Of a DNA stretch of 64,000 bases, positions 25,715-45,495 are shown one piece after another; position 1 is the stretch's first letter, and each line of letters begins with the position of its first letter. Both the position numbers and the translations under genes were made by a program. The notes under the pieces were generated by a model. That model saw only the letters and a list, made by a program, of their open reading frames with translations, was not told the DNA's origin and did no database searches. This DNA is from Vibrio sp. NTOU-M3. GTDB lineage: Bacteria > Pseudomonadota > Gammaproteobacteria > Enterobacterales > Vibrionaceae. Location of the stretch: assembly GCF_040869035.1 (NCBI RefSeq), contig NZ_CP162101.1, positions 1,178,001 through 1,242,000 of the forward strand. The letters run 5' to 3'.

Positions 25715-27040
25715 TCAAGGTTCACTTTTTTCAAGGATTCGTTGCAGTCGAGGGCGGCTGATCTTGAGGATTTCACAAGCTTTTCCTTTATGACCGTTGA
25801 CGGACTCTAATACCTTGAGAACATGGTGGTACTCGATATCTTGCAAGCTTAGATTGGCTGAGGTATTGCTGTCTTCTTGAGTGATTAAATCCGTTTTGAG
25901 TTCCTCAAATAGATCCGCTGTGAGGATATCTCCCGGGCACAATGCAACGGCTTTTGTCAGCGTATTTTCCAACTCACGTACGTTCCCGGGCCAAGGATAA
26001 CGACAGAGGGTATCCATTGCATCTAGTGCTACTTTGGTCACTTTTGTTCCAAGTTCTTTGTTCGCACGAGCGAGCAGGGCGGGGATCAAATCATGTAAAT
26101 CTTCAGGGCGCTCTCTCAATGGCGGGATATGTATTTTGACAACTTGTAAGCGATAAAACAGATCTTCTCTGAACTGTTTATCATTGATGGCTTGTTCAAA
26201 ATCGATGTTCGTTGCGGAAATAATGCGTGCAGAGGTACGTACGGGCTGTTTGCCGCCAAGTGGCGTAAATTCTTTCTCTTGCAGTACCCTTAGCAACTTG
26301 GCTTGGATTTGAGGCGAGAGTTCACCTACTTCATCAAGAAACAGTGTGCCTTGATTGGCCAGCTCAAATTTACCTGCTTGTTCGGAGATAGCCCCAGTAA
26401 ATGCCCCTTTTTTATGCCCGAACATCTCTGATTCCAGTAGGTTTTCTACCAGTGCAGCACAGTTAAGTGCGACGAAAGGGGAGCCAGAGGGACGTCCAGC
26501 GTTGTGAATAGCCCGAGCGACCATTTCTTTACCTGTACCAGACTCACCAGTGATCATGACGGAAGCATTCGTAAGGGCAACACGGCCGATGGTTTTGTAT
26601 ATCTCTTTCATTGCATGGGAAGAACCTACCATCGAATGACCATACGTGTCTGGAATTGTAAGGGCGTCTTGATGCGTAGAAGCGCGATACTCTATGGCGG
26701 TGGCAACGGCCTGATCCAATTCATCAATATCAATGGGTTTGTGGATGTACTCATCCGCGCCTTTTTGCATTGCCGTAATGGTGCTATCCATATCATGGAA
26801 GGCGGTGATCATAATAATGCGAACGCTCGATGAAATGGCTTTGAATTCTGCAATTCCTTCGATGCCAGATTTTCCTTCCATGCGTATATCTAAGATGATC
26901 ACATCCGGGCAGAAATCTCGCGCAATGGACACACCATCATCAACGCAGTGGGCGGTTTTAACGTCGTGCTGCTCGGAATAGTGCAGCTGTAACATTCGGC
27001 TAATTCCAGTGTCGTCATCGACAATTAACAGCTTACTCAT
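25715..27040 (-). CDS. Sigma-54-dependent NtrC-family response regulator
   Basis: 441-residue bacterial enhancer-binding protein. The ATG at 27038-27040 is preceded by AGGAAG nine bases upstream; a TTG two codons earlier is less likely. The receiver domain has phospho-acceptor Asp51 (VIILDIRM). The AAA+ domain has Walker A GESGTGKE and the sigma-54 contact loop GAFTGA, and is followed by PWPGNVRELENT. A Fis-type helix-turn-helix (GKACEILKISRPRLQRIL) ends the protein. It starts 18 bases after the kinase stop, so the two form an operon. The sigma-54 promoter with dyads near 32.1-32.26 kb, across the HEAT gene, is the nearest plausible target. Confidence 0.92.
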   Translation of the reverse strand: MSKLLIVDDDTGISRMLQLHYSEQHDVKTAHCVDDGVSIARDFCPDVIILDIRMEGKSGIEGIAEFKAISSSVRIIMITAFHDMDSTITAMQKGADEYIHKPIDIDELDQAVATAIEYRASTHQDALTIPDTYGHSMVGSSHAMKEIYKTIGRVALTNASVMITGESGTGKEMVARAIHNAGRPSGSPFVALNCAALVENLLESEMFGHKKGAFTGAISEQAGKFELANQGTLFLDEVGELSPQIQAKLLRVLQEKEFTPLGGKQPVRTSARIISATNIDFEQAINDKQFREDLFYRLQVVKIHIPPLRERPEDLHDLIPALLARANKELGTKVTKVALDAMDTLCRYPWPGNVRELENTLTKAVALCPGDILTADLFEELKTDLITQEDSNTSANLSLQDIEYHHVLKVLESVNGHKGKACEILKISRPRLQRILEKSEP

Positions 27041-27058
27041 GGTCAAAGACTTCCTGTA

Positions 27059-29557
27059 TTACGTATTAGCCGTTGCCGGCAGGGTTGTTGTATTTGAAGG
27101 GGAGGCGGGAATGCGTATCCGTGCCTGTGTCCCTTGAGGTAAAGGTATCAGTTGAATCTGCCCTTTGTGAGCATCAATGATGCGCTGTACAATTGCCAGC
27201 CCTAATCCTGTGCCTTTCGCTTTAGTGGTAAAGAAAGGTTCGAATACTTTGTCTACAAGACAAGGATCAATGGAGTGGCCGTTATTTTCAATATCTATCA
27301 GCAGTTGAGTCTCGGAATCTGTGATCATGATATTTGAACAGATCACCACTTGTGGTGGCTCTGTTGTCGCTTGTTGTGCTGCTTGCATGGCATTGAGCAG
27401 CAGGTTTTGTAACGCTTGACGCAGTTTAGTTGGGTCGGCGTAAAGCGTGGGTAAATTAGGTTGTAGGCTCAAGGTAATATTAACGTTGTTTTGTTTACTA
27501 AGCTTTTGCTGACTGGCGGCGAGTGTTTCAAGCAGCTTGTTTAAATCTATCCACTCTGGTTTGCATTGATCAGGGCGAGAATAAGCCAGCAGCTCTTCTA
27601 AGATGGCTTCCATATAGCGCACCTGCTCAAGGGAGATATCAAACATCTCATTTTTTTGCGTTCTGGCTTGGAGCTGCAGCACCATTTTTATCGAGCTGAG
27701 TGGGTTACGCAGATCATGCGCAATCATACTGACGACTTTACCAACGGCGGCCAGTTTTTCATGATGAATACGTTCGCGCGTTTGTGTTTCAACTTCTTGT
27801 GCGAGCCTCTTTTCTTCGCTGATGTCTTGCTTCACCGCTACGTAATACAGCGTTCGACCATCGACGTCTTTTACCGGGGAAATACGCGCACGTTCCCAGA
27901 AGAGTTCACCGTTCTTTTTGCGGTTATGAAACTCGCCACGCCACTCTTGTCCTTCCTCAAGGGTTTGCCACAAATTTTGGTACTCAGAACTGTCCATTTC
28001 TCCCGATTGTAGAAACCGTGGTGTTTGCCCTAAAACGTCTTCACGTTGATATCCGGTAAGTTCACAAAACACCGGATTAACATACACAATGCGTCCAGTC
28101 AGGTCAGTGATCATCACGGAGTTCTGGCTTCGTTCAACGGCGTGGCTTAAGCGTTGAAGCTGATCCTGAGCCATCTTCTGTTCGGTCACATCTTCTCCAA
28201 GCAGTGTTAGGGAAACTTCTTGGTCGTTTGATTCTGTAAAGGTGGATGTCCAAGAAACTAAGTGGATTTCCCCTGTTTGGCTTAGCACCACACTTTCACT
28301 ATGCGGCTGATGGGTTTGTTGGCGAATGGCTTCATCTAAGGCTTCTTGAGCTTGAACTTGTAATTCTTTGGGAATAAATCGTTCGACCCAAGGGTGACCA
28401 ATAACTTGCTCTGAGCGATAACCCACCATACTTAGGAAAAAGTCATTGCAGAAAGTAATGATGCCTTCTCGGTTGATGCTCACAGCAGCTAACTGGATAT
28501 TCTCAAGTGTATGACGAAACTGCTGCTCATAACGCTGTTGCTGGTGGAGAAAGCGAGTTTGTACGCGATAGCGGCTGAAAATAAAGGCCGCCACACTGAC
28601 TAAGACAAACAGCAGACAATAGAACAAGCTGTAGTTGCTGTGAAACGCAATACGTGAAAGGTTAAAGCGCTCGGTAGGAAACACCGAAACAACGGTCCAG
28701 TTGCCGCTATTAGGCGCTTCAATTTGGGCAAAAGTATAATAGTTGATGCCTAAAAAGCGTTGCCCTTCTTTTTGCGAAATTATCCAGTCGAACACGTCCT
28801 CTGGCATATTTTTGTCTTTTGAAACTGCAAAGTTACTGCCTTGGGCATCGGTTGGATGAATGACGGCGATACCGTCTGGGTTGTAGAGGTAAACGTGGTT
28901 AGTGAACTCAGGCGCGACAGCAATAAGTTTGTTGATGAGCTGATTGCCTTTGTAGTTCAGAATAATCACGCCGAGTCGTTTGCCTTGGTCGTCAAAAACC
29001 GGAGTTCCTACTCGAATGGTTGGTTTAATTGGTTTTTGTATTTCACCTTCTTCAACGTTGAGATCAAGGGGGGAGATATAAACTTCTCCTTTACTTAATC
29101 GGTTTGAATACTGCCAGTAATAGCGGTGAGCTTTATTTTGCAGTTTAGCGCTCGGGACGACTGACACTTCGCCATTGTTATTGTTGACCCGTAACCGTTC
29201 GAAACCTTGAGTGTCGAGAAAGCGAATTTGATCATAACTGTGATTATTCACGCTAAGCTGAACAAAGTAGGCTTTTAATGAGGCATAAGGGGCAACTTGA
29301 GAAGAAAGAGTATTGCTGGCAACGTAACTAAGGTTTTTTGCATCTGCAGACATGCGAATTAAGGTTTCCCCTAACATCTCTTCAATTAGCCCAACAATGA
29401 CCCGCTCGTTGTGAAGCGCATACTGTTTGTCGTTATCCACGCTTAGCAGATAATGTAGGTTCATCCAGATCCCCAGAACAAGGTACCCCGGAATAGCCCA
29501 GAGAAGCCATTCAGAGAAGAAGGCTTTCTTGGTCGGCTTATGTTGGATGTTTCTCAT
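27059..29557 (-). CDS. Membrane sensor histidine kinase (Cache + PAS)
   Basis: 832-residue kinase paired with the following sigma-54 regulator. A first membrane segment (about 14-38) and a second (about 310-330) flank a large periplasmic double-Cache-type sensor. Two PAS domains follow (about 350-460 and 475-590; the latter has NPVFCELTGY and GEFHNRKKNGELFWERA). The HisKA domain has His614 in MIAHDLRNPLSS. The HATPase domain has NLLLNAMQAA, GTGLGLAIVQRI. The ligand is unknown. Because its partner probably drives the redox operon at 32.3 kb, the sensor may detect that operon's substrate or a related redox cue; this is inference. Confidence 0.9.
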   Translation of the reverse strand: MRNIQHKPTKKAFFSEWLLWAIPGYLVLGIWMNLHYLLSVDNDKQYALHNERVIVGLIEEMLGETLIRMSADAKNLSYVASNTLSSQVAPYASLKAYFVQLSVNNHSYDQIRFLDTQGFERLRVNNNNGEVSVVPSAKLQNKAHRYYWQYSNRLSKGEVYISPLDLNVEEGEIQKPIKPTIRVGTPVFDDQGKRLGVIILNYKGNQLINKLIAVAPEFTNHVYLYNPDGIAVIHPTDAQGSNFAVSKDKNMPEDVFDWIISQKEGQRFLGINYYTFAQIEAPNSGNWTVVSVFPTERFNLSRIAFHSNYSLFYCLLFVLVSVAAFIFSRYRVQTRFLHQQQRYEQQFRHTLENIQLAAVSINREGIITFCNDFFLSMVGYRSEQVIGHPWVERFIPKELQVQAQEALDEAIRQQTHQPHSESVVLSQTGEIHLVSWTSTFTESNDQEVSLTLLGEDVTEQKMAQDQLQRLSHAVERSQNSVMITDLTGRIVYVNPVFCELTGYQREDVLGQTPRFLQSGEMDSSEYQNLWQTLEEGQEWRGEFHNRKKNGELFWERARISPVKDVDGRTLYYVAVKQDISEEKRLAQEVETQTRERIHHEKLAAVGKVVSMIAHDLRNPLSSIKMVLQLQARTQKNEMFDISLEQVRYMEAILEELLAYSRPDQCKPEWIDLNKLLETLAASQQKLSKQNNVNITLSLQPNLPTLYADPTKLRQALQNLLLNAMQAAQQATTEPPQVVICSNIMITDSETQLLIDIENNGHSIDPCLVDKVFEPFFTTKAKGTGLGLAIVQRIIDAHKGQIQLIPLPQGTQARIRIPASPSNTTTLPATANT

Positions 29558-29697: not shown

Positions 29698-31983
29698 CTA
29701 AGTCATTAATGCACCCATCAGTTTAATCCCATTGGGTTGTTGCTCTGGCGATAGGGAATTCAAGTGTTGCGTAAGCCAATTTAGAGCATGCGCTTGAAAC
29801 ATTTTAAAGTGTTGAAAAGCGATGGTGTGACATTCTTGATCATGTATCGGAAGAAGTATGACCGACTCGATGCTTTCATCGGGCTCTCTGAGTAAACAAC
29901 TGAGTTTGAGAGCCTGTTTACGGACGCCACCCGCAGGATCATCTAGTAGCACTGAGACAGCGGCTTTAACCACAGGTTTATATTGCAGCGTCAATTTAGA
30001 AAGGTGCTGTTCCACAGTAAATAGGGCGCTAAGCCGAACGTGTTCATCTGGGCTTTTTAGCGCCTCGAGTAGCAGCGGTAGGGCTTTGGATGTTGGAACA
30101 CAAGCGAGGTACTTCAACGCATGTTGCTGAGTTAACGGGTGGCCACCAAAAATAGTGGTTGCTGCGGCGCCGATTGCATTATGAATTTGACTGGATGGGT
30201 TAAGTGCTTTCTTTTGATGTGTCAGGGATTGGAATATTTCACGCAGCTCGCTGTCATTGGCACCCAACAAGGCCTCAATTAACCACTCAACCGCTTGTGG
30301 GTTAGAGGCTTGCCCTAAAGCACGCAATGCGAGAACTTTATTGTCGTATTCTGGTAGTCGGGCGATTTTCTTACGATTTAAATTGAGGTTGTCTGCACTA
30401 TCAAAGTGCTCTTTGACCACCTGACCAAAGGACGCCAGTTCGTCATCAAGTTCATTCACCATCTCAACGATATTGGTTTGTTGATCGTCTTGTTGGTGTT
30501 GGACATCTAATTTGGCTTCTAAGTTGGTTTGAGTGATCGCCGCTATGGTCGAAGACGGTGTATTTTCAGTTTGGTATTGGGCGGGAACATCGTGTTGTGC
30601 CAACGCTTCTAATAACGCTTCGTTTTGCTCGTTTTCCTTTTCGGCTTCATTGACTTCTATGGTGTCAGGGTAAGCACTCAGGCCAAAAATGGCGGTTCTG
30701 ATCAAGTGCTGGCAGTTTGGATGTGAGAGCTGGCTTATTAGATCAAAGCACGCTTGCCGAATCGAAGTATCGTAGAAAGGTACATCACCGTTCTCTTTGC
30801 AGCGTAAAATCCGCTGTTCAAGTGCTGGCAACAGAGCATCAATATGCGAGTTTAACGAAATTAACGTACGTATAAGCGGTGCTTGTATGTGGGTTTTGAG
30901 CTGGTCATTCTCAAGTAACTCAACCGCAATGGATACAAGTTGTTGCTGCTGAGAGGAAGAGAGCAAAGCAGGATTAGCTTGTTGTAAAAACGCCACAAAA
31001 GCATTTGGTTCATTGGCACAAAGCATATCGATGATCACCGGGTAATCTTGTTCTTCCAGGCTTTGTTGGTGCATCAACTGAATCAGTTGTGTTCGAGCGG
31101 CGGGTGCTGCCGTTTTCAAGTAGCTTAATAATCGGCTTTTATCGATTTCGTCATACCCAGACAGTTGTTCTAATCCGGTTATTGCTGCTTTTTGCACCTG
31201 CTCATCCGTATCTTGAAGGTGTTTGGCTATGTCCCAAAAATATTCGCTAGCATGCTTGCTCGTTAGTGCCTCGATGGCAATGCGCCGACAGAGTGGGTCG
31301 TCATCCGTGAGGTGTTTGTACAAAAATGCTTTTGCGAGTTGAGTTTCACTAAATTTGAGGGCTTTAAGCAATTTGCGCCTTGCTGTGAGCGGCGCTGTGA
31401 GAAGGCGATCAGTAATCCAACTGGCATCAAGTTTAGCGATGCCCCGATATAATATGCTTTCTAGTTCGGGCTCTGGATCTTGTTCAAGCACTTCCTGAAA
31501 CAGCTTGAGATAAGCAGGACTTGGGTGCTCAACCAATATACTGACCGCTTCGAACTGAAGATCCCACCAATCGTCCCAATCACTGCTTAGTCCCCATTTA
31601 TCATCCGCAAGCCGTCCTTGAGCGATTTGCTGGACCAATTTGTCTACAGGGTTGAGCGTTAAGTGATGAGATAAGGCATGAAGTGCGCCAATGCGAGCAT
31701 CGCTTTCAGGGTGATATTTCACCACTTCACACAGTGAATCAACGTTACCGCCTTGAAGCTGAGCAAGTGCTGATGCCGCATCGATGACGACATCAGGGTC
31801 GGGGTGATACAAACAGTCGTTCAGAGCTGGCTCCGTCGCGCTAATCTTGTTTGCTGCTACTACGCCAGCCGCATAGCAGCGCTGTGCTTCATCTCCTTGT
31901 TGGAGTAATTGGATCAATAATTGTTGTGCTGACTGTTTAGCGGCTTCTAAATTCTCACCTCGATTTGTGATGGTTTTGTCCAT
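29698..31983 (-). CDS. HEAT-repeat protein
   Basis: 761-residue soluble alpha-solenoid protein. The ATG at 31981-31983 has AAAGG eight bases upstream. Repeated helical pairs of the HEAT/PBS-lyase type run through almost the full length, for example DPDVVIDAASALAQLQGG, DDPLCRRIAIEALTSK and SPDEHVRLSALFTVEQHL. A low-complexity Gln/Glu-rich segment (about 445-520) divides two solenoid halves. No signal peptide is present, so it is cytoplasmic. It is divergent from the redox operon and read toward the kinase/regulator pair. HEAT proteins act as scaffolds, and in some systems as maturation factors. A role in assembling the molybdopterin or heme enzymes next door is possible but unproven. Confidence 0.82.
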   Translation of the reverse strand: MDKTITNRGENLEAAKQSAQQLLIQLLQQGDEAQRCYAAGVVAANKISATEPALNDCLYHPDPDVVIDAASALAQLQGGNVDSLCEVVKYHPESDARIGALHALSHHLTLNPVDKLVQQIAQGRLADDKWGLSSDWDDWWDLQFEAVSILVEHPSPAYLKLFQEVLEQDPEPELESILYRGIAKLDASWITDRLLTAPLTARRKLLKALKFSETQLAKAFLYKHLTDDDPLCRRIAIEALTSKHASEYFWDIAKHLQDTDEQVQKAAITGLEQLSGYDEIDKSRLLSYLKTAAPAARTQLIQLMHQQSLEEQDYPVIIDMLCANEPNAFVAFLQQANPALLSSSQQQQLVSIAVELLENDQLKTHIQAPLIRTLISLNSHIDALLPALEQRILRCKENGDVPFYDTSIRQACFDLISQLSHPNCQHLIRTAIFGLSAYPDTIEVNEAEKENEQNEALLEALAQHDVPAQYQTENTPSSTIAAITQTNLEAKLDVQHQQDDQQTNIVEMVNELDDELASFGQVVKEHFDSADNLNLNRKKIARLPEYDNKVLALRALGQASNPQAVEWLIEALLGANDSELREIFQSLTHQKKALNPSSQIHNAIGAAATTIFGGHPLTQQHALKYLACVPTSKALPLLLEALKSPDEHVRLSALFTVEQHLSKLTLQYKPVVKAAVSVLLDDPAGGVRKQALKLSCLLREPDESIESVILLPIHDQECHTIAFQHFKMFQAHALNWLTQHLNSLSPEQQPNGIKLMGALMT

Positions 31984-32121
31984 GCCCACATCCTTTTCTC
32001 TCTTTTGCTTACAAGGTGTTTAGCAGGTTTTATGCCTGAATGTTTATCCGTTAAAAATCTCTTAAAAACAGTTGGTTACATAATTTGGTTTATGGATGGT
32101 GCACGCAAGCCGTGAAGTGAT

Positions 32122-32169
32122 TGAACGATATGTTCACTTATGGGGGAGTGAATTAAACGAATCGTTCAA
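32122..32169 (+). promoter_or_regulatory. Two upstream dyads, candidate enhancer sites
   Basis: TGAAC-N5-GTTCA (32122-32136) is a perfect dyad. TTAAACG-AAT-CGTTCAA (32153-32169) is a near-perfect one (one mismatch) sharing the CGTTCA core. The centres are 32 bases apart, about three helical turns, and lie 90-135 bases upstream of a sigma-54 promoter. This is the classic layout for an NtrC-type activator. Confidence 0.55.
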
Positions 32170-32242
32170 AAAAACACGATGTGATCTGATTCAAATTGCT
32201 CTTAATTATTTGATTATAAACAATAAAATTTAATAGGGAAAA

Positions 32243-32259
32243 TTGGAACGGTTTATGCT
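32243..32259 (+). promoter_or_regulatory. Sigma-54 promoter of the redox operon
   Basis: TTGGAACGGTTTATGCT has GG at 32245-32246, exactly ten bases, and GC at 32257-32258, the invariant spacing of sigma-54 promoters. Transcription would start near 32270, about 75 bases before the first ATG. Confidence 0.65.
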
Positions 32260-32345
32260 CAACCAGTAGTGGCGAATATAAAAACGCTGCGCACATAACA
32301 TACTGGAATGGCGCAGCAACTAGCTGGAAGCTAAGGAGCATAACA

Positions 32346-33434
32346 ATGAAAAAAATGCTGATCCTTGCTGCTACCGTAACGGTGTCATTTTCAGTTTGGA
32401 GTCAGGGAGAGCCGAAGTTTGGCCCTCTACCGAAATTGAAAGTCGATGCTGCAAAAGCAGAATTAGGAAAACGCCTGTTCTTTGATACTCGACTCTCTGG
32501 CAATACCGCATTGTCTTGCGCGTCGTGTCATAAACCCGAGAATGGATATTCTTATCCGGAAGCCTTGTCACCTGCTTACACGGGCAGTAAAGGTTTTCGA
32601 AATGTACCGACTTTAATCAATACAGCCTACAAAAAAGTGTGGTTCCACGATGGAAGAATCGGGACCAATCTTAACGATGTAACGCGTGAAAATATTACGG
32701 AAGATTGGTTGATGAATATGGACATGCGATTGATGCAAGAGCGTCTTAAGCAAGATCCAGTCTATGTGAAAATGTTCAAAGATGCCGGTTATGGTGAACC
32801 ATCAAATGGTTCCGTGCGTAAAGCCATTCCTGAGTACCTGAAAACACTCACTTCAAACCCAACACCTTTTGATAACAACAAACTCAGTTCAGAGGCTAAA
32901 AAAGGTTTCGCTTTATTTAAGGGCAAAGCGGGGTGTGCCTCTTGTCACAATGGTCCGTTATTTACTGATGGTAAGCCATACAACACGGGTGTTCCTGAAA
33001 ACTTAGATATTTTCCGCGACCCAATGCGTCATCAAACTTTTATTGCCTTCAACATGTTTATGGGAAATGAGAATTACATGAACCTTAAACGTGATGTCGG
33101 TGCACACGTTCAGACGCACAAGGCAGATGGAACCGACATGGGTAAGTTCATGACACCAACATTGCGAGAGCTTACGCAGACAGCACCTTACATGCACAAC
33201 GGTATGTTAGCGACGCTTGAAGATGTGGTTGCATTTTATAACGCCGGTGGCGGGCAAGATAGTAATAAAGATGCTCGACTTAAGCCATTGAACCTTAGCG
33301 ATAAAGAGCAAGCGCAGTTGGTGGCTTTCCTGAAATCCTTGTCTAGTGAACCGCTGACCAGTGAGAAACACGTGTGGATGGCGAACGATTACGACTACAA
33401 GCTGATCTCCGATTGGCGCAACGCGAAAAACTGA
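32346..33434 (+). CDS. Diheme cytochrome c peroxidase / MauG-like protein (IdrP-like 1)
   Basis: 362-residue periplasmic diheme protein. AAGGAG precedes the ATG. The signal peptide ends near residue 20 (FSVWSQ). Heme 1 attaches at Cys58-x2-Cys61-His62 and heme 2 at Cys197-x2-Cys200-His201. The C-terminal signature TAPYMHNGMLATLEDVV is typical of the peroxidase/MauG superfamily. Family members reduce hydrogen peroxide or oxidise protein side chains. It is the first gene of the operon and is paired with a second, distinct diheme protein. Such pairs accompany iodate reductase (IdrP1/IdrP2), where they are thought to detoxify reactive intermediates. Confidence 0.88.
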   Translation: MKKMLILAATVTVSFSVWSQGEPKFGPLPKLKVDAAKAELGKRLFFDTRLSGNTALSCASCHKPENGYSYPEALSPAYTGSKGFRNVPTLINTAYKKVWFHDGRIGTNLNDVTRENITEDWLMNMDMRLMQERLKQDPVYVKMFKDAGYGEPSNGSVRKAIPEYLKTLTSNPTPFDNNKLSSEAKKGFALFKGKAGCASCHNGPLFTDGKPYNTGVPENLDIFRDPMRHQTFIAFNMFMGNENYMNLKRDVGAHVQTHKADGTDMGKFMTPTLRELTQTAPYMHNGMLATLEDVVAFYNAGGGQDSNKDARLKPLNLSDKEQAQLVAFLKSLSSEPLTSEKHVWMANDYDYKLISDWRNAKN

Positions 33435-33444
33435 GGAGGACGAG

Positions 33445-34677
33445 ATGAAAATGAACTCAATCACCTTGTCTGCAATGACGGCACTGACCTTATCTCTGAC
33501 CGCATTACCAGCTTGCGCTAAACAAGACGATAAGTCGTTAACGGCAGATCAAGTTGCAGCCAGCCTGCCAGCAGTGCAACTGGATGGAAAAAGCTATCCG
33601 GCATTGGCACCGCTTGGTGACGTGCCAACACCAAAAGATAACCCGACAACACCGGAGAAAGTTGAGTTAGGTAAACTGCTTTTCTTTGATGGCCGCTTAG
33701 GGGGTGATACCACAACCCCTTGCTCTGCGTGTCACAATCCTGCACTAGGTTGGGATTTCCCAGCGGACTTGTCTTTAGGTTATCCGGGCACGGTGCACTG
33801 GCGAAATAGTCAGACAATTATTAATTCCGCCTACTACCAGAAACTATTTTGGGCAGGTTCTTCCAAGTCTCTTGAAGGACAAGCGAAAAGTGCTGCGAAA
33901 GGGGGTGTTGCGGGTAACGGCGAAGATGACATCATGGAAGCACGGTTAGCATTGGTGCCAGATTATGTTGAACGCTTTAATCATGTGTTTGGTGACAACT
34001 ATCCGAAAGTCAGTAACGCATGGAAAGCCATTGCGGCGTTTGAGCGCACATTAGTACAAACCGATACACCGCTGGATAACTACTTAATGGGGGATAAATC
34101 GGCCCTTACAGAAGCTCAGTTACGAGGTAAAACCTTATTTGAAGGCAAAGCAAAGTGCATCGCTTGTCACAATGGTGCGCTGGCGTCTGATCAAAAGAAC
34201 TACAACATAGGTGTGCCAACCAATAAACGCTGGGAAAGCGACCCGCTTGCTCAGATCACTTTCCGTTATGAACTCTACGCTAAGGGCTCTAACGAAAAGA
34301 TGTATCGTGAGACTAAAGCGGATCCCGGGGTGTATTTCCGCGGCAAACGCAAGGAGATGAAAGGTAAGTTCCGTACGCCAAGTATCCGTTATACCAAGTA
34401 CACCGCGCCATACATGCACAATGGCACCATTGCGACCTTGGCCGATGTAGTGGATTTCTATGACCGAGGTGGTATTGCAAAGGATGGACGTACCACAGAT
34501 TTCCCACAAACCAAAAGTCCGCTTATTCAGCCACTTGGGCTGACGGCTGAAGAGAAACAAGACTTGCTGGCGTTTATCGACGCCTTCTCGGGAGAGCGCA
34601 TCACCATGGATTATCCGAAGCTGCCTGAATATCAGCGCTTGTTCAGTGAAGAAGAATTGGCGGAGGTGAAGAAATGA
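33445..34677 (+). CDS. Diheme cytochrome c peroxidase / MauG-like protein (IdrP-like 2)
   Basis: 410-residue periplasmic diheme protein. AGGAGG lies five bases before the ATG, overlapping the previous stop. The signal peptide ends around residue 25 (LTALPACA). Heme sites are Cys93-x2-Cys96-His97 and Cys238-x2-Cys241-His242, and the C-terminal TAPYMHNGTIATLADVV matches the family. It is longer than and clearly diverged from its upstream partner, so the two are old paralogues with separate roles. Its stop overlaps the start of the Rieske gene by four bases (ATGA), which indicates translational coupling and a shared complex or pathway. Confidence 0.88.
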   Translation: MKMNSITLSAMTALTLSLTALPACAKQDDKSLTADQVAASLPAVQLDGKSYPALAPLGDVPTPKDNPTTPEKVELGKLLFFDGRLGGDTTTPCSACHNPALGWDFPADLSLGYPGTVHWRNSQTIINSAYYQKLFWAGSSKSLEGQAKSAAKGGVAGNGEDDIMEARLALVPDYVERFNHVFGDNYPKVSNAWKAIAAFERTLVQTDTPLDNYLMGDKSALTEAQLRGKTLFEGKAKCIACHNGALASDQKNYNIGVPTNKRWESDPLAQITFRYELYAKGSNEKMYRETKADPGVYFRGKRKEMKGKFRTPSIRYTKYTAPYMHNGTIATLADVVDFYDRGGIAKDGRTTDFPQTKSPLIQPLGLTAEEKQDLLAFIDAFSGERITMDYPKLPEYQRLFSEEELAEVKK

Positions 34678-35273
34678 TTTTCGGTAAAGATAAAGCGAAT
34701 AAAAAAGAGAGTGCTACAGAACATCGGAAATGCATGATGTCACGTCGTAAGTTTTTGATGTATAGCGGGGTGACGGCAGGGGCGGCAAGTGTTATGCCGA
34801 TCACTTTGTTCCCCGGAACGGCGCAAGCTATGCACACCAATGCTCGGGTTGTGGGTTATCCACGAAAGTTACTTGGCAAATTGAGTGATCTTAAAGCCAA
34901 TAAACCTGTGTATTTCAACTACCCCGATGATGGACCAAATAGCCAAGGTATTTTGGTCAAAATGGATGTTCCAGCAGGCGGTGGTATTGGCCCCAAACAA
35001 GATGTGGTCGGCTTCTCTTTGATGTGTACTCACCAAGGCGGTCCGCTCAATGGTCAATATAAAGTAGTTGGTGAACACCGGGTGTTAGGTCAGTGTCCAT
35101 TCCACCTGTCTACTTTTGATATGCGCAGACATGGCATTATCGTTTCTGGTCAAGCATATGAGAGTTTACCGCAGGTACTGCTTGAGCTAGATGGTGATGA
35201 AATATATGCCGTGGGCATTATGGGGCTGTTATTTGGCCGAACTGAAAACATAATTGCGATGCAGGAGACGTAA
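34674..35273 (+). CDS. Tat-exported Rieske iron-sulfur subunit (IdrB/AioB-like)
   Basis: 199-residue electron-transfer subunit with a [2Fe-2S] cluster. A twin-arginine signal (SRRKFLMYSG, Arg24-Arg25, then a weak hydrophobic stretch and TAQA) directs folded export. The Rieske ligands are Cys118-x-His120 (CTHQGG) and Cys141-x2-His144 (CPFH). The size and position directly before the molybdopterin subunit match AioB of arsenite oxidase and IdrB of iodate reductase. The catalytic subunit lacks its own export signal and would travel with this one. The ATGA overlap with the upstream gene ties it to the operon. Confidence 0.9.
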   Translation: MIFGKDKANKKESATEHRKCMMSRRKFLMYSGVTAGAASVMPITLFPGTAQAMHTNARVVGYPRKLLGKLSDLKANKPVYFNYPDDGPNSQGILVKMDVPAGGGIGPKQDVVGFSLMCTHQGGPLNGQYKVVGEHRVLGQCPFHLSTFDMRRHGIIVSGQAYESLPQVLLELDGDEIYAVGIMGLLFGRTENIIAMQET

Positions 35274-35275
35274 TC

Positions 35276-37972
35276 ATGACGACTAACTTCTATATTCCTG
35301 AAGATCATGCGCCGCTGCCTCCCAAAAATGCAGAAGTGCTGACAACGGCATGTGACTACTGCGTGGTTGCATGTGGTTACAAGGTTTACCGCTGGCCACT
35401 TGAACAAGCAAACGGTGGCATGAAAGCGAGTGAAAACGCATTTGGTGTCAATTTCCCAAGTGCGCCACTTCAAGCTTGGGTGGCTCCTGCCCAGCACAAT
35501 GTGGTGATGCACAATGGCAAACCGCATAATATTGTGGTGGTTCCGGATAAAGACACTCAAGCGGTCAATAAAACGGGTGACTCCTCGATGCGAGGTGGGT
35601 TGCTGGCACAAAAACTCTACAACCCATCAACTGGAACTCGTGACCGTTTAACGCAACCTTTGGTGCGTATTGGGGGGAGTTTACAACCGGTGCCGTGGGA
35701 GTTTGCGCTCGATATTGCAGCGGAGATAGGTAAGCATGTGATTGATACCCATGGTGCCAATGCCTATGGGGTAAAAACCTTCTCATACCAATATATTGAA
35801 AATACCTACGCGATCACTAAATACGCATTGCGCCATGTTAATACGGCGAACTTTACGTTCCACGATACTCCTTCGGACGTAACGTCTACCCCCGGATTCC
35901 GAGATGCAGGGTTTGATAACTTTGGGCCAAGCTACGACGATTGGGGCGCTGCCGATACGCTGATGATTTGTGGTACTGATCCGTATGAGACGAAAACCAT
36001 CATCTTTACGCAGTTCATCATGCCAGCGGTACAACGTGGTATGAAAACCATCATGCTTAATCCGCGTGAAACCGCAGGTATCGCTTGGCTTAAGAAACAA
36101 GGTGGCTTGCATATCGACCTGAATCCGGGTTCGGATAATTTAGTTGTCGGTGCAATCATTCGCGTTATTTTGGAGAGAGGTTGGGAAGACAGCGAGTGGC
36201 TGCAAAATTGGGTCAATAATAAATGGGAGTCCAGCTCAGGCTTTGGTCAAGGTACGCGTAACACGCCTTGGCAGTGGCGAACAACTTGGGGCAAGTTCCA
36301 GACCAATGGTTTTGAAGACTATAAGAAATGGAATCTGGCACAGAAAGAGTACGATCCTAAGTATGCAGCCAAACTGGCGGGCATTGATGTCGATAAGATT
36401 TACAAAGCGGCTGAAATGTTAGCCAAACCAGTTGATGGCGTACGCCCGAAAGCTTCAATCGGTATCGAAAAAGGATTTTATTGGTCCAATAACACCGGCA
36501 ATACCAATGCTATTTCGGCGCTAGCCACGGTGATTGGCACTGGAGGACGTGAAGGGCGCGTCATTGGTCGATTCGGTGGTCACCAACGTGGTGGCCAGTC
36601 CGGTGGTAAGCTTCCGCGTAATAAATCCCCAGAGAAAGTACCGGGACGTCGTCGTCGTTCAATTGATACTGACCGTTACTTATACTCAGGCCATACACGC
36701 TTTGCCCATGTGATTGGTACCACATGGATTCAAGCCATGTGTGGTAGCCAAGGGTTACAGAAGAAGTTCTGGGAACTGACGGTTGCTAACCCGCATCAAG
36801 TGTTTAGTTATGATAAACAAGAGATCATCGACACTTTGAAAAAGCGTGCCGACTCCGGTGGCATGGTGGTGATCAATCAAGATATTTACTTGCGTGACCC
36901 CATTGGTGCCAAGTTTGCCGATATTGTTTTCCCGGCTGCAACTTGGGGTGAAGTGGACTTTATGCGAGCTAACGGTGAACGCCGATTACGTCTGTATCAA
37001 AAGTTTGCTGATGCTCCCGGGCAAGCGCAGCCAGATTGGTGGATCATCAGTCAGCTTGCAACGCGCATGGGTTATGACGGTTTCGACTGGAATAACTCAA
37101 ACGATGTTGCAGAAGAAGCGTCTCGCTTTAGTCGGGGAAGCCGTAAAGATTTCCATATGATCAAAGTTGCGGCTCATGCTGAAGGCAAAACATTGCATGA
37201 AAAGTTATTGGAGTACGGCACGGATGGCATTCAAGGTCCGGTCTTCTATAACTACGACACCAAGCAGCTGGTGGGAACTAAACGTCTTCATGATACGGAG
37301 ATGACGGCAGAAACCCTAGCAGAGAAAGGGCTAACCGATGGGCCTCAAGGGGCCAATGTGTTGAAGAAACAGCTTACTGCGTTTAACAGCCAAACCGGTA
37401 AAGTGAACCTGCAAAAACACCCTTGGGATTTGTTTAGCGATTTCTATGCGTGGCTTCAGCCAAAAGAAGAAGAGCTTTGGTTCTCCAATGGCCGTATCAA
37501 TGAGATCTGGCAATCCGGTTTTGATGATGTCGAGCGCCGTGCGTACGTCATTCAACGCTGGCCAGAAAACTGGGTTGAGATTCACCCTGATGACGCTAAA
37601 AAGCGCGGAATAGAGTCGGGTGACCAAGTCATGATGTACTCCGATCGTGTGGCTAACTTTAAGGACACTATTCTCGGGGTTCATGGTGATGACTTCCAGT
37701 TCAGTAAGCTGATGGAGAATGGCCATATTAAATTGGATACAGCGGCGGTTACGGCAGTTGCGATTGTGACGCCTGCGGTGAAGAAGGGCACTCTTTACGC
37801 CAATATGATCGATATGCGTCAGCCATCTAATTCGTTAACAACACGGGTGGTGGACCAAATCTCCGGGAACTACAACTTCAAGATGGGTGTTGCCAACATT
37901 AAGAAGTTAGGGGAATCCAAGTACAAGCATGAGTTCCGAGCGTTCTCATTTGCCCCTCGTAATATCGTTTAA
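35276..37972 (+). CDS. AioA-family molybdopterin oxidoreductase, likely IdrA-like iodate reductase
   Basis: 898-residue catalytic subunit of the DMSO-reductase superfamily, arsenite oxidase (AioA) branch. GGAG precedes the ATG, two bases after the Rieske stop. Cys26-x2-Cys29-x3-Cys33 (CDYCVVACGYKVYRW) and a Ser in GDSSMRGG at the fourth position predict a [3Fe-4S] cluster as in AioA. NNEVWQ-type C-terminal cofactor motifs (SNGRINEIWQSG) are present. Of the four residues I recall as lining the arsenite site, the Arg and His of RFGGHQRGG (Arg432, His436) remain. The His and Glu appear replaced in the 196-218 region (Pro206 and Asn215 by ungapped comparison). That and the two peroxidase partners favour iodate reductase over arsenite oxidase. 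Function remains unproven. Confidence 0.82.
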   Translation: MTTNFYIPEDHAPLPPKNAEVLTTACDYCVVACGYKVYRWPLEQANGGMKASENAFGVNFPSAPLQAWVAPAQHNVVMHNGKPHNIVVVPDKDTQAVNKTGDSSMRGGLLAQKLYNPSTGTRDRLTQPLVRIGGSLQPVPWEFALDIAAEIGKHVIDTHGANAYGVKTFSYQYIENTYAITKYALRHVNTANFTFHDTPSDVTSTPGFRDAGFDNFGPSYDDWGAADTLMICGTDPYETKTIIFTQFIMPAVQRGMKTIMLNPRETAGIAWLKKQGGLHIDLNPGSDNLVVGAIIRVILERGWEDSEWLQNWVNNKWESSSGFGQGTRNTPWQWRTTWGKFQTNGFEDYKKWNLAQKEYDPKYAAKLAGIDVDKIYKAAEMLAKPVDGVRPKASIGIEKGFYWSNNTGNTNAISALATVIGTGGREGRVIGRFGGHQRGGQSGGKLPRNKSPEKVPGRRRRSIDTDRYLYSGHTRFAHVIGTTWIQAMCGSQGLQKKFWELTVANPHQVFSYDKQEIIDTLKKRADSGGMVVINQDIYLRDPIGAKFADIVFPAATWGEVDFMRANGERRLRLYQKFADAPGQAQPDWWIISQLATRMGYDGFDWNNSNDVAEEASRFSRGSRKDFHMIKVAAHAEGKTLHEKLLEYGTDGIQGPVFYNYDTKQLVGTKRLHDTEMTAETLAEKGLTDGPQGANVLKKQLTAFNSQTGKVNLQKHPWDLFSDFYAWLQPKEEELWFSNGRINEIWQSGFDDVERRAYVIQRWPENWVEIHPDDAKKRGIESGDQVMMYSDRVANFKDTILGVHGDDFQFSKLMENGHIKLDTAAVTAVAIVTPAVKKGTLYANMIDMRQPSNSLTTRVVDQISGNYNFKMGVANIKKLGESKYKHEFRAFSFAPRNIV

Positions 37973-38038
37973 CTCAGTAATGCGTCGGGGAGTAGGGACC
38001 CCGGCGCACTTACTTTATCGAACAAAAATGGAGTATCA

Positions 38039-38353
38039 ATGATGAAGAAAGAGCTTGGTTTGGTGATGGCAAGTGCTGTTCTGTTGTGTGCCGCATCGGG
38101 TAGTGCAATTGCAGGCGATATCGAGGCTGGCAAAGCGAAGTCGGCTACCTGCATTGCGTGCCACGGCGCGAATGGAATTTCGCCCACAGACCTCTATCCG
38201 AACTTGGCAGGACAAAAAGCGGCTTATATGGTGAAACAGATGAAAGCGTTCAAAGAAGGATCTCGCCAAGATCCGACAATGAGCGCAATGATTGCCCCTC
38301 TCACAGAAGAAGATATGACTAATATCGCCGCTTATTATGCGTCTTTGAAGTAG
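38039..38353 (+). CDS. Periplasmic monoheme cytochrome c (c553-like)
   Basis: 104-residue class I cytochrome c. A signal peptide ([17 protein letters not shown]) is followed by Cys38-x2-Cys41-His42 (CIACHG), [17 protein letters not shown] and a likely distal Met in [12 protein letters not shown] is upstream. It is the last gene of the operon, 66 bases after the catalytic subunit, and ends at a strong terminator. It is the natural electron shuttle between the quinol/cytochrome pool and the Rieske subunit. Confidence 0.88.
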
Positions 38354-38440: not shown

Positions 38441-40483
38441 TTATTGTGCAAGTAGCCTAAATGTAAACGTCAAACCTGCCGACTTATTGCGTTTTACCTC
38501 AATCATTCCTTGCATATCACGAATACTATTGGCACTGATGGACAATCCAAGCCCTAACCCTTCTCCGATTTTCTTGCTCGTCATAAAGGGCTCAAACATA
38601 TGATCCAGTTGGTTATCATCCGCACCGGAACCATTGTCTGTAATGGATACTTCTATCCATTTGTCTATCTGACAGGCTGAAATGACTAACTGAGGCTGAG
38701 CCTGTTGATGAAGAGCGTCGATTGCATTTTTGATTAGATTACCAAGTACCTGACGGATGCGTTGTTCTTCGCCCATAACATTAGGCAATTGGGTTGCAAG
38801 CCGAACATGAACGTCGATGGATGCTAATTCAGCTTGATAGATGCGAAGGATCTCGGCGATTGCATCGGTTAAGGAGACGGGATGCAATGACTCTGGCTTA
38901 TTGTACGCGAAAGATTTCAGCTGAGTCGTCATACGGTTCATACGTTCAATTAACTGGTGTATCAGGCGGTTGTTATCTTGTAATAGCTGGCTTTCTCCTC
39001 GCGCCATCAAGACTTCGTTGCTGGTAATCAAGGTTTTAAGTCCGGTCAGTGGCTGGTTAAGTTCATGCGTGATGGCACTCGACATTCGGCCAAGTGCAGC
39101 AAGCTTACTGCTTTCAATAAGCTCTTGCTGTGCTTGCTTGAGCTGTTCTGTGCGGGTTTCTACCCGTTTAGCCAGTGCTTGGTTTGCTTGTTGTAGAGCT
39201 TGTTCGGCTTTTTTTCGTTTGCTTATGTCCAAGACAGTCGCTAAGTAATAGGGTTCACCATGCCAGACAAAAGAGGTGAGCGAAAAAAGAACAGGAAATA
39301 GGCTGCTGTCACTTCGTTTGGCCAGCGTTTCAACCCCAGTAATTTCGGCGAGCTCTCGATGACGGCTTAAGTTTTTGAGTAATTGTAATGTGGTGGAATT
39401 TGGGTTTCCGACATCAAACAAGTGCCAAGCGGGAGTCTGTTTGGCAAGGTTGTCGGGTAATGAAAACAGTCGCTGCGCCATGGGATTGATTTCAAACAAG
39501 CGTCCGTTGTTGTCCAATAAAAGCAAGCCCACTTGGGTTTTATTGATGATCTGATTCAGCCGTTGTTGGGACTCTTGCAATAGCTTTTGAATCCGCAGTT
39601 GACCTAATGCCTTTTGACGACGCTGGTAAATAATGATCAGCAATAAAATCAGCAATAAATTAAACAATGCGACACTCCAACCCGCAATGGTTGCTAACTG
39701 CCTGATGGGTGAGAGAGGAGAGAGGTAACTGAGTTGCCATTGAAGGTCATCCAGTTTTACCTGTTGAGCCAGATAAGGTTGGCTTAGTGTGAGATGCTTT
39801 ATTCGCGTGCCACTATTTAAGGTTTGGTCTGTAAGGCTGAGAGTTGCGGCATTGTCGTTGAGCCAACTGACAGGGTATTGCGACGAGGTTGATAAGAAAT
39901 AGTCCAACCGTTGGTTCTGCACGAACAAAAGGTCTTCACTGGTGAGCCACTGCTCGGTTAGCAAGCTGAGGTTAATTTGAACCACGGCAATCCCCGCGAT
40001 GTCGAGATCGTGATAAACAGGGGCCGCAAGATAATAAAAAGGTGTGCTGCCGCGAGTTCGGCTTACGAGCGTAACGCCTTCTCCTTGCTGATGGATTTGA
40101 TCTACGATCGACTGAATATCTGCTTGAGGTAATGATTTGTTTTTATTACTTGAAACCAAGACTTGCCCAGTATTGGATAGCAGATACCATCCCTTGGTGT
40201 TAGCTGCTTGATCAAGTAATGTAAGCTCATGCGTTAATGTGGGCTTAAGCTGTGTTTCTCCTGTCACCAACCTCAACGTGCCTGAGCTGTTTGTGATCAG
40301 GTAGGGTAGGTGATAGAACCGCTTAAGCGCCCGGCGCACGTCACCAATATAGTTGAGCAAGTCTTGCTGCTTGGCTTCCAATGTTTGCTCTGCTTTCCAC
40401 TGGTAGACAAATTGCGTTGTTATCCACTGTGATAAAAAGAGAAACATAGCCACGGCGATGGCAATTAACGTCTTACGCAACAT
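38441..40483 (-). CDS. DctB-like sensor histidine kinase
   Basis: 680-residue membrane kinase of the C4-dicarboxylate sensor type. The ATG has TAGGAG upstream. Membrane segments at about 5-22 and 268-290 flank a periplasmic double-Cache sensor. A PAS domain follows (about 310-430) and then a coiled coil. The HisKA domain has His473 in SSAITHELNQPL, the form found in DctB. The HATPase domain has NLIKNAIDAL and GEGLGLGLSISANSI. It is divergent from a DctD-like regulator, and the two flank a TRAP transporter locus. The ligand is probably the carboxylate carried by that transporter. Confidence 0.9.
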   Translation of the reverse strand: MLRKTLIAIAVAMFLFLSQWITTQFVYQWKAEQTLEAKQQDLLNYIGDVRRALKRFYHLPYLITNSSGTLRLVTGETQLKPTLTHELTLLDQAANTKGWYLLSNTGQVLVSSNKNKSLPQADIQSIVDQIHQQGEGVTLVSRTRGSTPFYYLAAPVYHDLDIAGIAVVQINLSLLTEQWLTSEDLLFVQNQRLDYFLSTSSQYPVSWLNDNAATLSLTDQTLNSGTRIKHLTLSQPYLAQQVKLDDLQWQLSYLSPLSPIRQLATIAGWSVALFNLLLILLLIIIYQRRQKALGQLRIQKLLQESQQRLNQIINKTQVGLLLLDNNGRLFEINPMAQRLFSLPDNLAKQTPAWHLFDVGNPNSTTLQLLKNLSRHRELAEITGVETLAKRSDSSLFPVLFSLTSFVWHGEPYYLATVLDISKRKKAEQALQQANQALAKRVETRTEQLKQAQQELIESSKLAALGRMSSAITHELNQPLTGLKTLITSNEVLMARGESQLLQDNNRLIHQLIERMNRMTTQLKSFAYNKPESLHPVSLTDAIAEILRIYQAELASIDVHVRLATQLPNVMGEEQRIRQVLGNLIKNAIDALHQQAQPQLVISACQIDKWIEVSITDNGSGADDNQLDHMFEPFMTSKKIGEGLGLGLSISANSIRDMQGMIEVKRNKSAGLTFTFRLLAQ

Positions 40484-40628
40484 GATGGGCTCCTATACAT
40501 AGCCAGCACAGCTTGCGTGTTCAAGTATGCTTGTTAAAGCATTGTTACCTAAAAGTGAGATCCAGCTCCTTTTCTGTTGTGCGCGGTTCGCCTACCTTAG
40601 CGGGCATAGGTATTAGTGGTACACCGTT

Positions 40629-41984
40629 ATGGAAAAACAGCACACTCCTCTCATTGCATTAATTGAAGATGACGATATTGTTCGCCAAGCGACGACTCAA
40701 TGGCTTGAATTAGCAGGCTTTCATGTTGATGTGTTTAGCAACGCAACTGATGCTCTGTTGGCATTACCAAATGGCACGCATCAAGCGGTGATTTCGGACG
40801 TAAAATTACCGGATATCGACGGTATCAACTTGCTCAGCCAGCTACGTGATGCTGATGTGATAGCGCCTGTCATCTTGATCACAGGGCATGGCGATGTCGA
40901 TATGGCGGTCAAAGCGCTTCAATTAGGCGCTTATGACTTTATCGAAAAGCCATTTAATCCAGAACGTCTTTCGACAACGGTAGCAAGCGCGGTAGAGCAA
41001 CATGTACATCAGAACGCTTGTGACGAACGTTTGCAGTATTTACAAGCACTATCAGGTATCGAGCAACTTTTGATTGGTCAAAGTGATGTGATGAAACAGC
41101 TACGTGAGCAGGTTGCTCGCGTAGCAACGATAGATACCAACGTTATTATTTATGGAGAGACGGGGGCAGGCAAGGAGCTGGTAGCAACGGCACTGCATGA
41201 GATGAGTCAGCGTTACAAGCATCACTTTGTTCCTCTTAATTGTGGCGCAATTCCAGAAAACCTATTTGAAAGTGAATTGTTTGGTCATGAAGCCGGAGCC
41301 TTTACCGGAGCGGTTAAGCGCCGCATCGGTAAATTGGAACATGCGAATAAAGGTACGGTTTTCTTTGATGAAGTCGAAAGTATGCCATTAAACATGCAAG
41401 TAAAGGTGCTTCGATGCCTACAAGAGAATGTGGTAGAGCGTGTTGGTGCCAATACAATGATTCCGGTAGATATCAGGGTGATTGCCGCAGCCAAAGAAGA
41501 TTTGTTGCACCACGCTGAATTTCGTCAAGATCTCTACTATCGCCTGAATGTCGCGCAGCTTCATATTCCACCGTTGCGTGAACGGGATCATGATGCGTTG
41601 CTCCTATTTGAGCATTTCGCTTTGCAAGCCAATCCTGAGACTCGCTCAGTCAGTGATGCAGATGCTCGTTCGCTGCTTGCTTACTCATGGCCGGGTAATG
41701 TGCGAGAGCTGAGAAATGTGGCGATCCGCTTTGCTTTGGATGACACGCTTTCTGTGGTTGAGATCTTATCGCAAAGGCCAAATAGCACCGTTGAAAATAC
41801 GCATGCTGGTGTGCCATTAGCCACTCAATTATTGAACTTTGAACGAAAGGTGATTCATGAAGCGTTGTTGCGGCATCAAGGTAAGATCACGGATGTGATG
41901 AATGAACTGGATTTACCGAGACGGACACTGAACCAGAAGATGCAAAAATTGGGTCTGAGCCGTATCGATTACACCAAGGTTTAA
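40629..41984 (+). CDS. DctD-like sigma-54 response regulator
   Basis: 451-residue enhancer-binding protein. The receiver has Asp57 (AVISDVKLPD). The AAA+ domain has GETGAGKE and the sigma-54 loop GAFTGA, with WPGNVRELRN. The C-terminus is a Fis-type helix-turn-helix (GKITDVMNELDLPRRTLNQKM). It lies directly upstream of the TRAP operon, whose promoter region holds a strong sigma-54 site and matching dyads. It is therefore the likely activator of that operon, signalled by the divergent kinase. Confidence 0.92.
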   Translation: MEKQHTPLIALIEDDDIVRQATTQWLELAGFHVDVFSNATDALLALPNGTHQAVISDVKLPDIDGINLLSQLRDADVIAPVILITGHGDVDMAVKALQLGAYDFIEKPFNPERLSTTVASAVEQHVHQNACDERLQYLQALSGIEQLLIGQSDVMKQLREQVARVATIDTNVIIYGETGAGKELVATALHEMSQRYKHHFVPLNCGAIPENLFESELFGHEAGAFTGAVKRRIGKLEHANKGTVFFDEVESMPLNMQVKVLRCLQENVVERVGANTMIPVDIRVIAAAKEDLLHHAEFRQDLYYRLNVAQLHIPPLRERDHDALLLFEHFALQANPETRSVSDADARSLLAYSWPGNVRELRNVAIRFALDDTLSVVEILSQRPNSTVENTHAGVPLATQLLNFERKVIHEALLRHQGKITDVMNELDLPRRTLNQKMQKLGLSRIDYTKV

Positions 41985-42005
41985 TCGACCAGTGAAATAC
42001 GATCG

Positions 42006-42121
42006 GCAAGAACTTGCTTATACATAAAAATAACATTTGATTTAAATTGATCACATAAATGCGGTAAATGTGAGTTGGATAAGCTCAATCATGGTGGTGA
42101 TATAAGCAAAATCTTGCTTAT
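42006..42121 (+). promoter_or_regulatory. Two dyads sharing TTGCTTAT, candidate DctD-type sites
   Basis: GCAAG-AA-CTTGC then TTAT (42006-42021), and ATAAGCAA-N4-TTGCTTAT (42102-42121, perfect 8+8). Both lie upstream of the sigma-54 promoter at 42205, and share the half-site TTGCTTAT. They are good candidates for binding of the regulator encoded just upstream. Confidence 0.6.
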
Positions 42122-42204
42122 TGAGATAAGTGAAAATCGGCGTAATTTTGCTGATTTAAAGGGTTATTTTTCCTATCTACATGAAATGTATGAAAAAGAT
42201 CATG

Positions 42205-42220
42205 TGGCATTATGCTTGCT
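42205..42220 (+). promoter_or_regulatory. Sigma-54 promoter of the TAXI-TRAP/lhgO operon
   Basis: TGGCATTATGCTTGCT has GG (42206-42207), ten bases, then GC (42218-42219), and matches TGGCAC-N5-TTGCT nearly throughout. It lies 55 bases before the first gene. Confidence 0.8.
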
Positions 42221-42275
42221 CTATAGGTTTTGATTAACAATTCCTTAACGTGAACGTATTACACGGAGAGTAACA

Positions 42276-43280: not shown

Positions 43281-43293
43281 CCCGTGCTCTTCT

Positions 43294-43311
43294 GGCCTCG
43301 GATTCGGGGCC
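43294..43311 (+). other. Intercistronic hairpin after the receptor gene
   Basis: GGCCTCG / CGGGGCC pair (one G-T wobble) around loop GATT, with no T tract. Hairpins at this place often stabilise the 5' mRNA so that the binding protein is made in excess over the permease. Confidence 0.45.
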
Positions 43312-43350
43312 TGAAATAACAATGATAAAATATGGATGTTGGAGTTTTCG

Positions 43351-45492: not shown

Positions 45493-45495
45493 AGA

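Follow-up and report, generated by a model that had tools for sequence, protein, structure and literature searches.

Does the compact gene cluster at positions 32346-38353 of a 64,000-nucleotide stretch from Vibrio sp. NTOU-M3 (contig NZ_CP162101.1, positions 1,178,001 to 1,242,000; this whole stretch is the window, and coordinates count from its first base) encode an iodate reductase, an arsenite oxidase or an enzyme with another substrate? A sequence-only reading had proposed an Idr-type (iodate reductase-like) operon, with two di-heme MauG/peroxidase-like genes, a twin-arginine translocation (Tat) Rieske gene, an AioA-family gene and a c-type cytochrome gene packed tightly together. Open reading frames (ORFs), domain matches and motifs confirm this gene set (Table 1), and the Idr-type assignment is borne out by the tree, synteny, the P1/P2 pair and residue differences from AioA. 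Judged by its sequence, the cluster is a well-formed, ordinary member of the known iodate reductase (idr) system. We place a probability of roughly 0.8 on the reading that it specifies a periplasmic iodate reductase system of an IdrA clade that we label 'marine', working by the steps proposed below, and this Vibrio is predicted to reduce iodate. Papers are cited by accession from excerpts of their text.

Gene content and order

The core genes are arranged P-P-B-A, and the names P1 and P2 were assigned by position, after PMC10989891. By ORF coordinates, idrB overlaps the idrP1-like gene by 4 bp. The two di-heme proteins are 37% identical to each other (131/355), as are P1 and P2 of published Idr (PMC8801600). 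No signal peptide is apparent by eye in IdrA. The family of the small class I cytochrome c was found by clustering in 7 of 83 loci. The cluster is located on contig 2 of a 4.86 Mb genome of two contigs.

The same reading held that the order P-P-B-A-cytochrome differs from idrABP1P2. This was mistaken, as 'idrABP1P2' is a name and not a gene order. In the best 80 of at least 538 relatives found, P-P-B-A is intact in 70 loci, interrupted by contig ends in nine, and has B uncalled by the ORF caller in one. Viewed by tblastn, B precedes A in all 80 except L020 and L029, which start at A. The published order is likewise idrP2, P1, B, A in Pseudomonas SCT, Denitromonas IR-12 and Ca. Methylomirabilis iodofontis (PMC10989891), and idrAB is described as "always preceded by" idrP1P2 (PMC8801600).

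Set beside the Idr systems of Pseudomonas sp. SCT, Denitromonas IR-12, Azoarcus DN11 and Aromatoleum TC-10, as the excerpts describe them, the window is alike in the four core genes, their P2-P1-B-A order, Tat on IdrB and a di-heme P1/P2 pair with the same mutual identity; some of these systems also have an AtoSC-like pair and a small cytochrome c nearby. The window differs in having no moaA among the neighbours scanned and in its HEAT gene, of which the excerpted literature on those systems makes no mention. Its IdrA probably belongs to a different clade.

Table 1. Features of the idr cluster, its control region and the genes divergent from it
Feature	Coordinates	Strand	Details
idrP2-like di-heme CCP/MauG-family protein	32346..33434	+	362 amino acids (aa); PF03150 E 3e-38; CX2CH at 58 and 197; gene 1 of P-P-B-A
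idrP1-like di-heme CCP/MauG-family protein	33445..34677	+	410 aa; PF03150 E 1.2e-40; CX2CH at 93 and 238
idrB, AioB-type Rieske [2Fe-2S] subunit	34674..35273	+	199 aa; TIGR02694 above cut-off; Tat-like SRRKFL; CTH-X20-CPFH
idrA, AioA/IdrA-type molybdenum catalytic subunit	35276..37972	+	898 aa; TIGR02693 above cut-off; CX2CX3CX70S; S204, R438
Class I cytochrome c, candidate electron donor	38039..38353	+	104 aa; PF00034; single CX2CH
Sigma-54-type -24/-12 element TTGGAACGGTTTATGCT before idrP2	32243..32259	+	89 bases from GC to ATG
Palindromic site 1 TTGAACGATATGTTCAC, probable activator site	32121..32137		2 mismatches to TTNAACGNNNCGTTNAA
Palindromic site 2 TTAAACGAATCGTTCAA, probable activator site	32153..32169		0 mismatches to TTNAACGNNNCGTTNAA
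Divergent sigma-54-like element AGGCATAAAACCTGC facing HEAT gene	32023..32037	-	10/13 regions compared
HEAT-repeat protein, probably cytoplasmic	29698..31989	-	763 aa; PF13646; idr-linked companion
Sensor histidine kinase, AtoS-like	27059..29557	-	PF21623 sensor region (outer), PAS domains; same cluster in 22/83 loci
Sigma-54 response regulator, AtoC/NtrC-like, probable idr activator	25715..27046	-	Relative of at least 55% identity in 14/70 loci

IdrA compared with arsenite oxidase

NCBIfam calls both subunits of the window enzyme 'arsenate reductase (azurin)' above cut-off, and the nearest solved structures are AioA, so the cluster might be an arsenite oxidase (AioBA) that two peroxidase genes adjoin by chance. 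The label applies to IdrA and AioA types alike. In a maximum likelihood tree (quick method, midpoint root) of 72 rows hand-picked from loci, genomes, plasmids and search matches, 66 IdrA-type rows, the window included, are split from six AioA rows with support of 100 in the Shimodaira-Hasegawa-like approximate likelihood ratio test (SH-aLRT); none of the rows comes from an enzyme named and proven to reduce iodate. The sequence-only reading had proposed that a tree should place the 898-aa protein, and it falls among the IdrA-type rows and not inside the AioA clade. It is 27.0% identical to the AioA of NT-25 and NT-26 and 26-31% identical to other AioA-kind plasmid rows.

Pocket residues separate the two types further. 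H196, R432 and H436 are conserved in 72/72 rows. The AioA Glu at NT-26 E207 (Glu in 6/6 AioA rows) corresponds to S204 in the window, a position held by Ser in 44 and Ala in 3 of the 47 marine-clade rows and by Asp in all 18 rows of the second clade. The AioA Glu after GGHQ (NT-26 E453; again 6/6) corresponds to R438, with Arg in 47/47 marine-clade and 17/18 second-clade rows. S204 occupies the arsenite-pocket position, which is a Glu (E203) in A. faecalis AioA. With the AioA Glu replaced at both positions, the window enzyme is not, as far as its residues tell, an arsenite oxidase.

Compared with AioBA of NT-26 and Thermus HB8, the window enzyme is alike in family, [3Fe-4S] motif residues, Rieske partner and the His and Arg pocket residues. 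Its CX2CX3CX70S motif is as in Idr and is not specific, the same residues being found there in the six AioA rows. The two systems differ in overall sequence (27-28% identity), in the residues at NT-26 E207 and E453, and in Rieske spacing, which is X13 or X15 in AioB (n=6); no peroxidase pair occurs within the AioBA stretches viewed. A chance adjoining is also at odds with P-P-B-A being whole in 70/80 loci, and no AioX-like gene was seen among the neighbours scanned, a search that did not extend to arsenic genes across the whole genome. On the strength of tree, residues and neighbouring genes we reject an arsenite oxidase identity, to which we leave only the slightest chance.

IdrA clades and the probable substrate

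The IdrA side of the tree comprises 47 marine rows (Vibrio, Moritella, Marinomonas, Ruegeria, Sedimenticola, Thiomargarita and others, with the window among them), 18 rows of a second clade that we label 'fresh' (an Azonexus plasmid, Sulfurivermis, Halomonas alkalisoli, Caenispirillum and others), and L135 alone. The proven iodate-reducer clade is probably the fresh one. In the published proven clade, most members have a two-component system, and half have c551 and moaA nearby (PMC8801600). The 319-kb Azonexus hydrophilus plasmid (L115) has these same neighbours, in the order kinase-sigma-54 regulator-P-P-B-A-cytochrome-moaA, near TnsA-like and IS21 genes, and it is this likeness that points to the fresh clade. 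SCT, DN11, Denitromonas, TC-10 and Roseovarius azorensis do not appear among the names of the IdrA matches listed, most of which are nameless. No marine-clade IdrA enzyme is tied here to a published activity, and iodate is the predicted substrate of the window enzyme.

Several observations weigh against that prediction. The pocket loop differs between marine and fresh clades (T198/K, S204/D, R209/D), the window IdrA is 47-48% identical to two fresh-clade plasmid proteins, and the respirers proven by 2022 are described as one small clade of ten genomes (PMC8801600). The Rieske spacing of the window IdrB, which does carry the Tat-like SRRKFL, is X20, against the published Idr motif CXHX18CX2H and the X18 of DN11 (PMC10149662). 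Among IdrB-type ORFs in the loci, X20 is found in 96/118, X18 in 21/118 and X19 in 1/118, counts in which some loci repeat the same gene.

R. azorensis, shown in 2024 to reduce iodate and to induce its idr genes with iodate (PMC11445184), gives a further, weak hint in the same direction. Its published IdrA mass of 99.4 kDa lies nearer to three fresh-clade proteins of its likely family (99.17-99.41) than to 12 marine-type proteins (99.68-100.07), although marine-type search matches of 99.4 kDa also exist. When the published masses (in brackets; PMC11445184) were compared with genome G457, IdrA at 99.41 (99.4) and AcnA at 98.91 (98.9) fit, IF-2 at 89.68 (89.1) does not, and no start among the first 40 of SecA fits its published mass.

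The differing pocket loop and the narrowness of the proven clade would suit a marine-clade 'Idr' that mainly reduces another substrate (bromate, chlorate, an organic or a peroxo compound), with iodate incidental. We consider this unlikely, given that the fresh-clade L115 shares the gene set and order and also has a sigma-54-type element before idrP, that the same Arg stands at 438 in both clades, and that all idrABP1P2 organisms are held to be likely iodate reducers (PMC8692401). Nonetheless, an Idr identity vouches less directly for iodate reduction in Vibrio than the neighbourhood argument of the literature suggests.

Proposed pathway and physiological role

Under the iodate reductase reading, IdrA, with its molybdenum bis-molybdopterin guanine dinucleotide (Mo-bisMGD) and [3Fe-4S] centres and without a signal of its own, would be exported folded together with the Tat-borne IdrB. 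Electrons would pass from the quinol pool through bc1 and a small cytochrome c (that at 38039-38353 or another) to IdrB and on to IdrA, which would reduce iodate, probably to hypoiodous acid that breaks down to iodide and iodate. The IdrP1/P2 di-heme proteins would clear peroxide-type by-products. The neighbouring histidine kinase may sense the acceptor or the resulting state. The need for idrA, induction by iodate, the periplasmic site and the reaction model are carried over from papers on relatives; in Denitromonas, deletion of idrA abolishes iodate respiration (PMC8692401).

The cluster might instead reduce iodate as a redox sink or for detoxification at low oxygen, and not for growth. R. 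azorensis and two other aerobes reduce iodate with no anaerobic growth on it (PMC11445184), so respiration proper is not certain, which also counts against the full pathway above. The window genome, however, has eight PF00384 matches, the window IdrA included. Vibrio are facultative anaerobes, and together these two facts leave respiratory use open to the genus. We regard use without growth as a possibility, though a doubtful one.

Control region and regulator

A control region (31990-32345) separates the divergent HEAT gene from idrP2 and contains the two palindromes, spaced 32 bp apart. Within the window alone, sigma-54-type matches are not above chance (four found, 3.2 expected). Across loci, a forward element TGG-N8..10-TGC stands at the aligned place in 12/13 upstream regions, with L010 departing, and TGG-N9-TGC precedes idrP2 in 40/72 stretches, the Azonexus plasmid included, as compared with 399/3600 random pieces. 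In L010, L015 and L034 the regulator is present and the exact TGG-N9-TGC absent.

The association of palindrome and regulator was scored in 70 loci (10/80 were excluded for no idrP2 or less than 600 bp), allowing at most two mismatches and at most 600 bp before idrP2. The palindrome is present in 14/14 loci with a regulator at or above 55% identity and in 9/56 lacking one; a pair 20-40 bp apart is found in 9/14 and 1/56, respectively. Among random 600-bp pieces drawn from these 14 loci, 107/1400 have a site and 22/1400 a pair. The loci counted are related, so that these tests are not independent and the numbers overstate independence. Across the whole genome, a relaxed search for the palindrome yields 22 matches against 24 for the reversed control, no more than chance would give, and the idr control region is the only place among the genome matches with two separate sites close together. 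As single matches do no better than chance, the case for the palindrome lies in the close pair and in its conservation.

These data suggest that the regulator binds the palindromes. The sigma-54 response regulator could bind both and fire both divergent promoters, that of idrP2P1BA and that of the HEAT-kinase-regulator genes. An AtoSC-like pair also lies beside idr in Azoarcus DN11 (PMC10149662), and a literature search for iodate with sigma-54 returned no match beyond that paper. The conserved control region is in effect a promoter that should report iodate.

HEAT-repeat companion gene

The HEAT gene is closely linked to idr. At E <= 1e-10 it occurs in 13/227 Vibrio genomes, all 13 among the 23 positive for idrA (hypergeometric 2e-15, the genomes being related), and it lies 3.0-3.4 kb from idrA in 14/14 pairs measured. 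By clustering, the family is found in 33/83 loci, divergent upstream in 17 and downstream in the same direction in 16. With a profile, diverged members were also picked up at the equivalent position in V. splendidus, V. tasmaniensis and Vibrio THAF190c, plus two edge fragments. Where the flank sufficed (48 loci), clustering placed the gene in 27 and not in 21, three of which the profile recovered. The HEAT gene beside idr is thus common, not universal. The family is loose, at 16-51% identity to the window protein, and a strict family motif, W..WWD.Q, failed at 15/26.

Arrangement differs by lineage. In gammaproteobacteria such as the window Vibrio, the HEAT gene usually points away from idr and has the control region in common with it. 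Thirteen of the 80 loci are titled alphaproteobacteria (nine Ruegeria), and in all 13 HEAT directly follows idrA, with gaps of -215 to 144 bases as drawn by the ORF caller; in L085 and L087 the two genes overlap by 4 bp. Six Ruegeria loci have a moeA-like gene nearby (one verified with Pfam). The window IdrA is 91-94% identical to those of V. sinaloensis, V. penaeicida and V. sonorensis and 88-89% identical to those of Moritella, which have the same HEAT-kinase-regulator block and otherwise differ little from the window cluster. In L023, L024 and L119, loci of the V. splendidus type, the HEAT gene is diverged and the stretches covered contain no relative of the window kinase-regulator pair.

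Our guess is that the HEAT protein probably helps load IdrA with its cofactor, or checks its quality, before Tat export. A role in sensing was considered as a rival, because the HEAT gene is here co-directional with those for the kinase and the regulator. Only tentatively do we go further and propose both that HEAT is a dedicated IdrA partner (a maturation or Tat proofreading factor replacing TorD/NarJ-type chaperones, or a sensor adapter) and that the marine active site is tuned to very low iodate or another oxyanion. A literature search pairing HEAT repeats with iodate gave only matches unrelated by title and abstract. The gene offers a handle on whether Idr needs a private assembly factor.

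Distribution and earlier reports

Genomes were surveyed for IdrA at E <= 1e-60, with counts that include the window's own genome. IdrA is found in 23/227 genomes of the genus Vibrio, in two groups with 91-94% and 80-81% identity to the window. Two of these Vibrio genomes, G187 and G210, have two idrA copies each; another, G208, has a second, broken copy in three pieces (C2:722539-724152), about 29 kb from the intact idrA. IdrA was further found in 15/369 genomes drawn from the class. In a draw from the phylum, 7/398 genomes match, two of the seven being AioA-like at 31-32% identity. A near-identity plasmid search with 25000-46000 gave one 4% match.

An iodate reduction island has already been reported in Vibrio spp. 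and Moritella spp. (PMC8692401). The presence of idr in Vibrio is therefore known, and its novelty is lower than the sequence-only reading implied. We found no iodate test of an idr-bearing Vibrio in the excerpted iodate reduction and idrA literature, a coverage that leaves out the original Yamazaki 2020 paper. For specialists, the interest lies in the HEAT companion, in the sigma-54-type control region that it shares with idr, and in the marine clade. More broadly, iodate reduction helps set sea-surface iodide, which feeds atmospheric iodine and ozone loss (PMC11445184). With about one in ten genomes of the genus having idrA, the easily grown Vibrio could hold many iodate reducers.

Neighbouring genes and other loci

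Many marine loci outside Vibrio have three linked families next to idr: a cytochrome bd subunit I-like protein (22/83), a cytochrome c (21/83) and an 800-aa multi-cytochrome with an ethylbenzene dehydrogenase domain (25/83). They occur in L027, L028, L043, L047-L050, L059, L060 and L063, among other loci, for the most part 5-10 kb upstream of idrA, and are perhaps the quinol-side module of those loci. Some Vibrio and Ruegeria loci (L009 at 13404-13877, L010, L023, L024, L119, L071 and L083) have, close to idrA, a gene for a cupredoxin of the plastocyanin/azurin family, a possible alternative electron donor.

In the window itself, a second AtoS/AtoC-like pair (38441-40483, minus strand; 40629-41984, plus strand) is followed by genes for a TAXI-TRAP transporter and for L-2-hydroxyglutarate oxidase; this stretch, 38441-46719, is probably a separate acid uptake unit. 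The window also has a 2390-aa ORF (10123-17295, plus strand) in which polysaccharide lyase 8 domains occur in two sets, together with two CBM96 modules.

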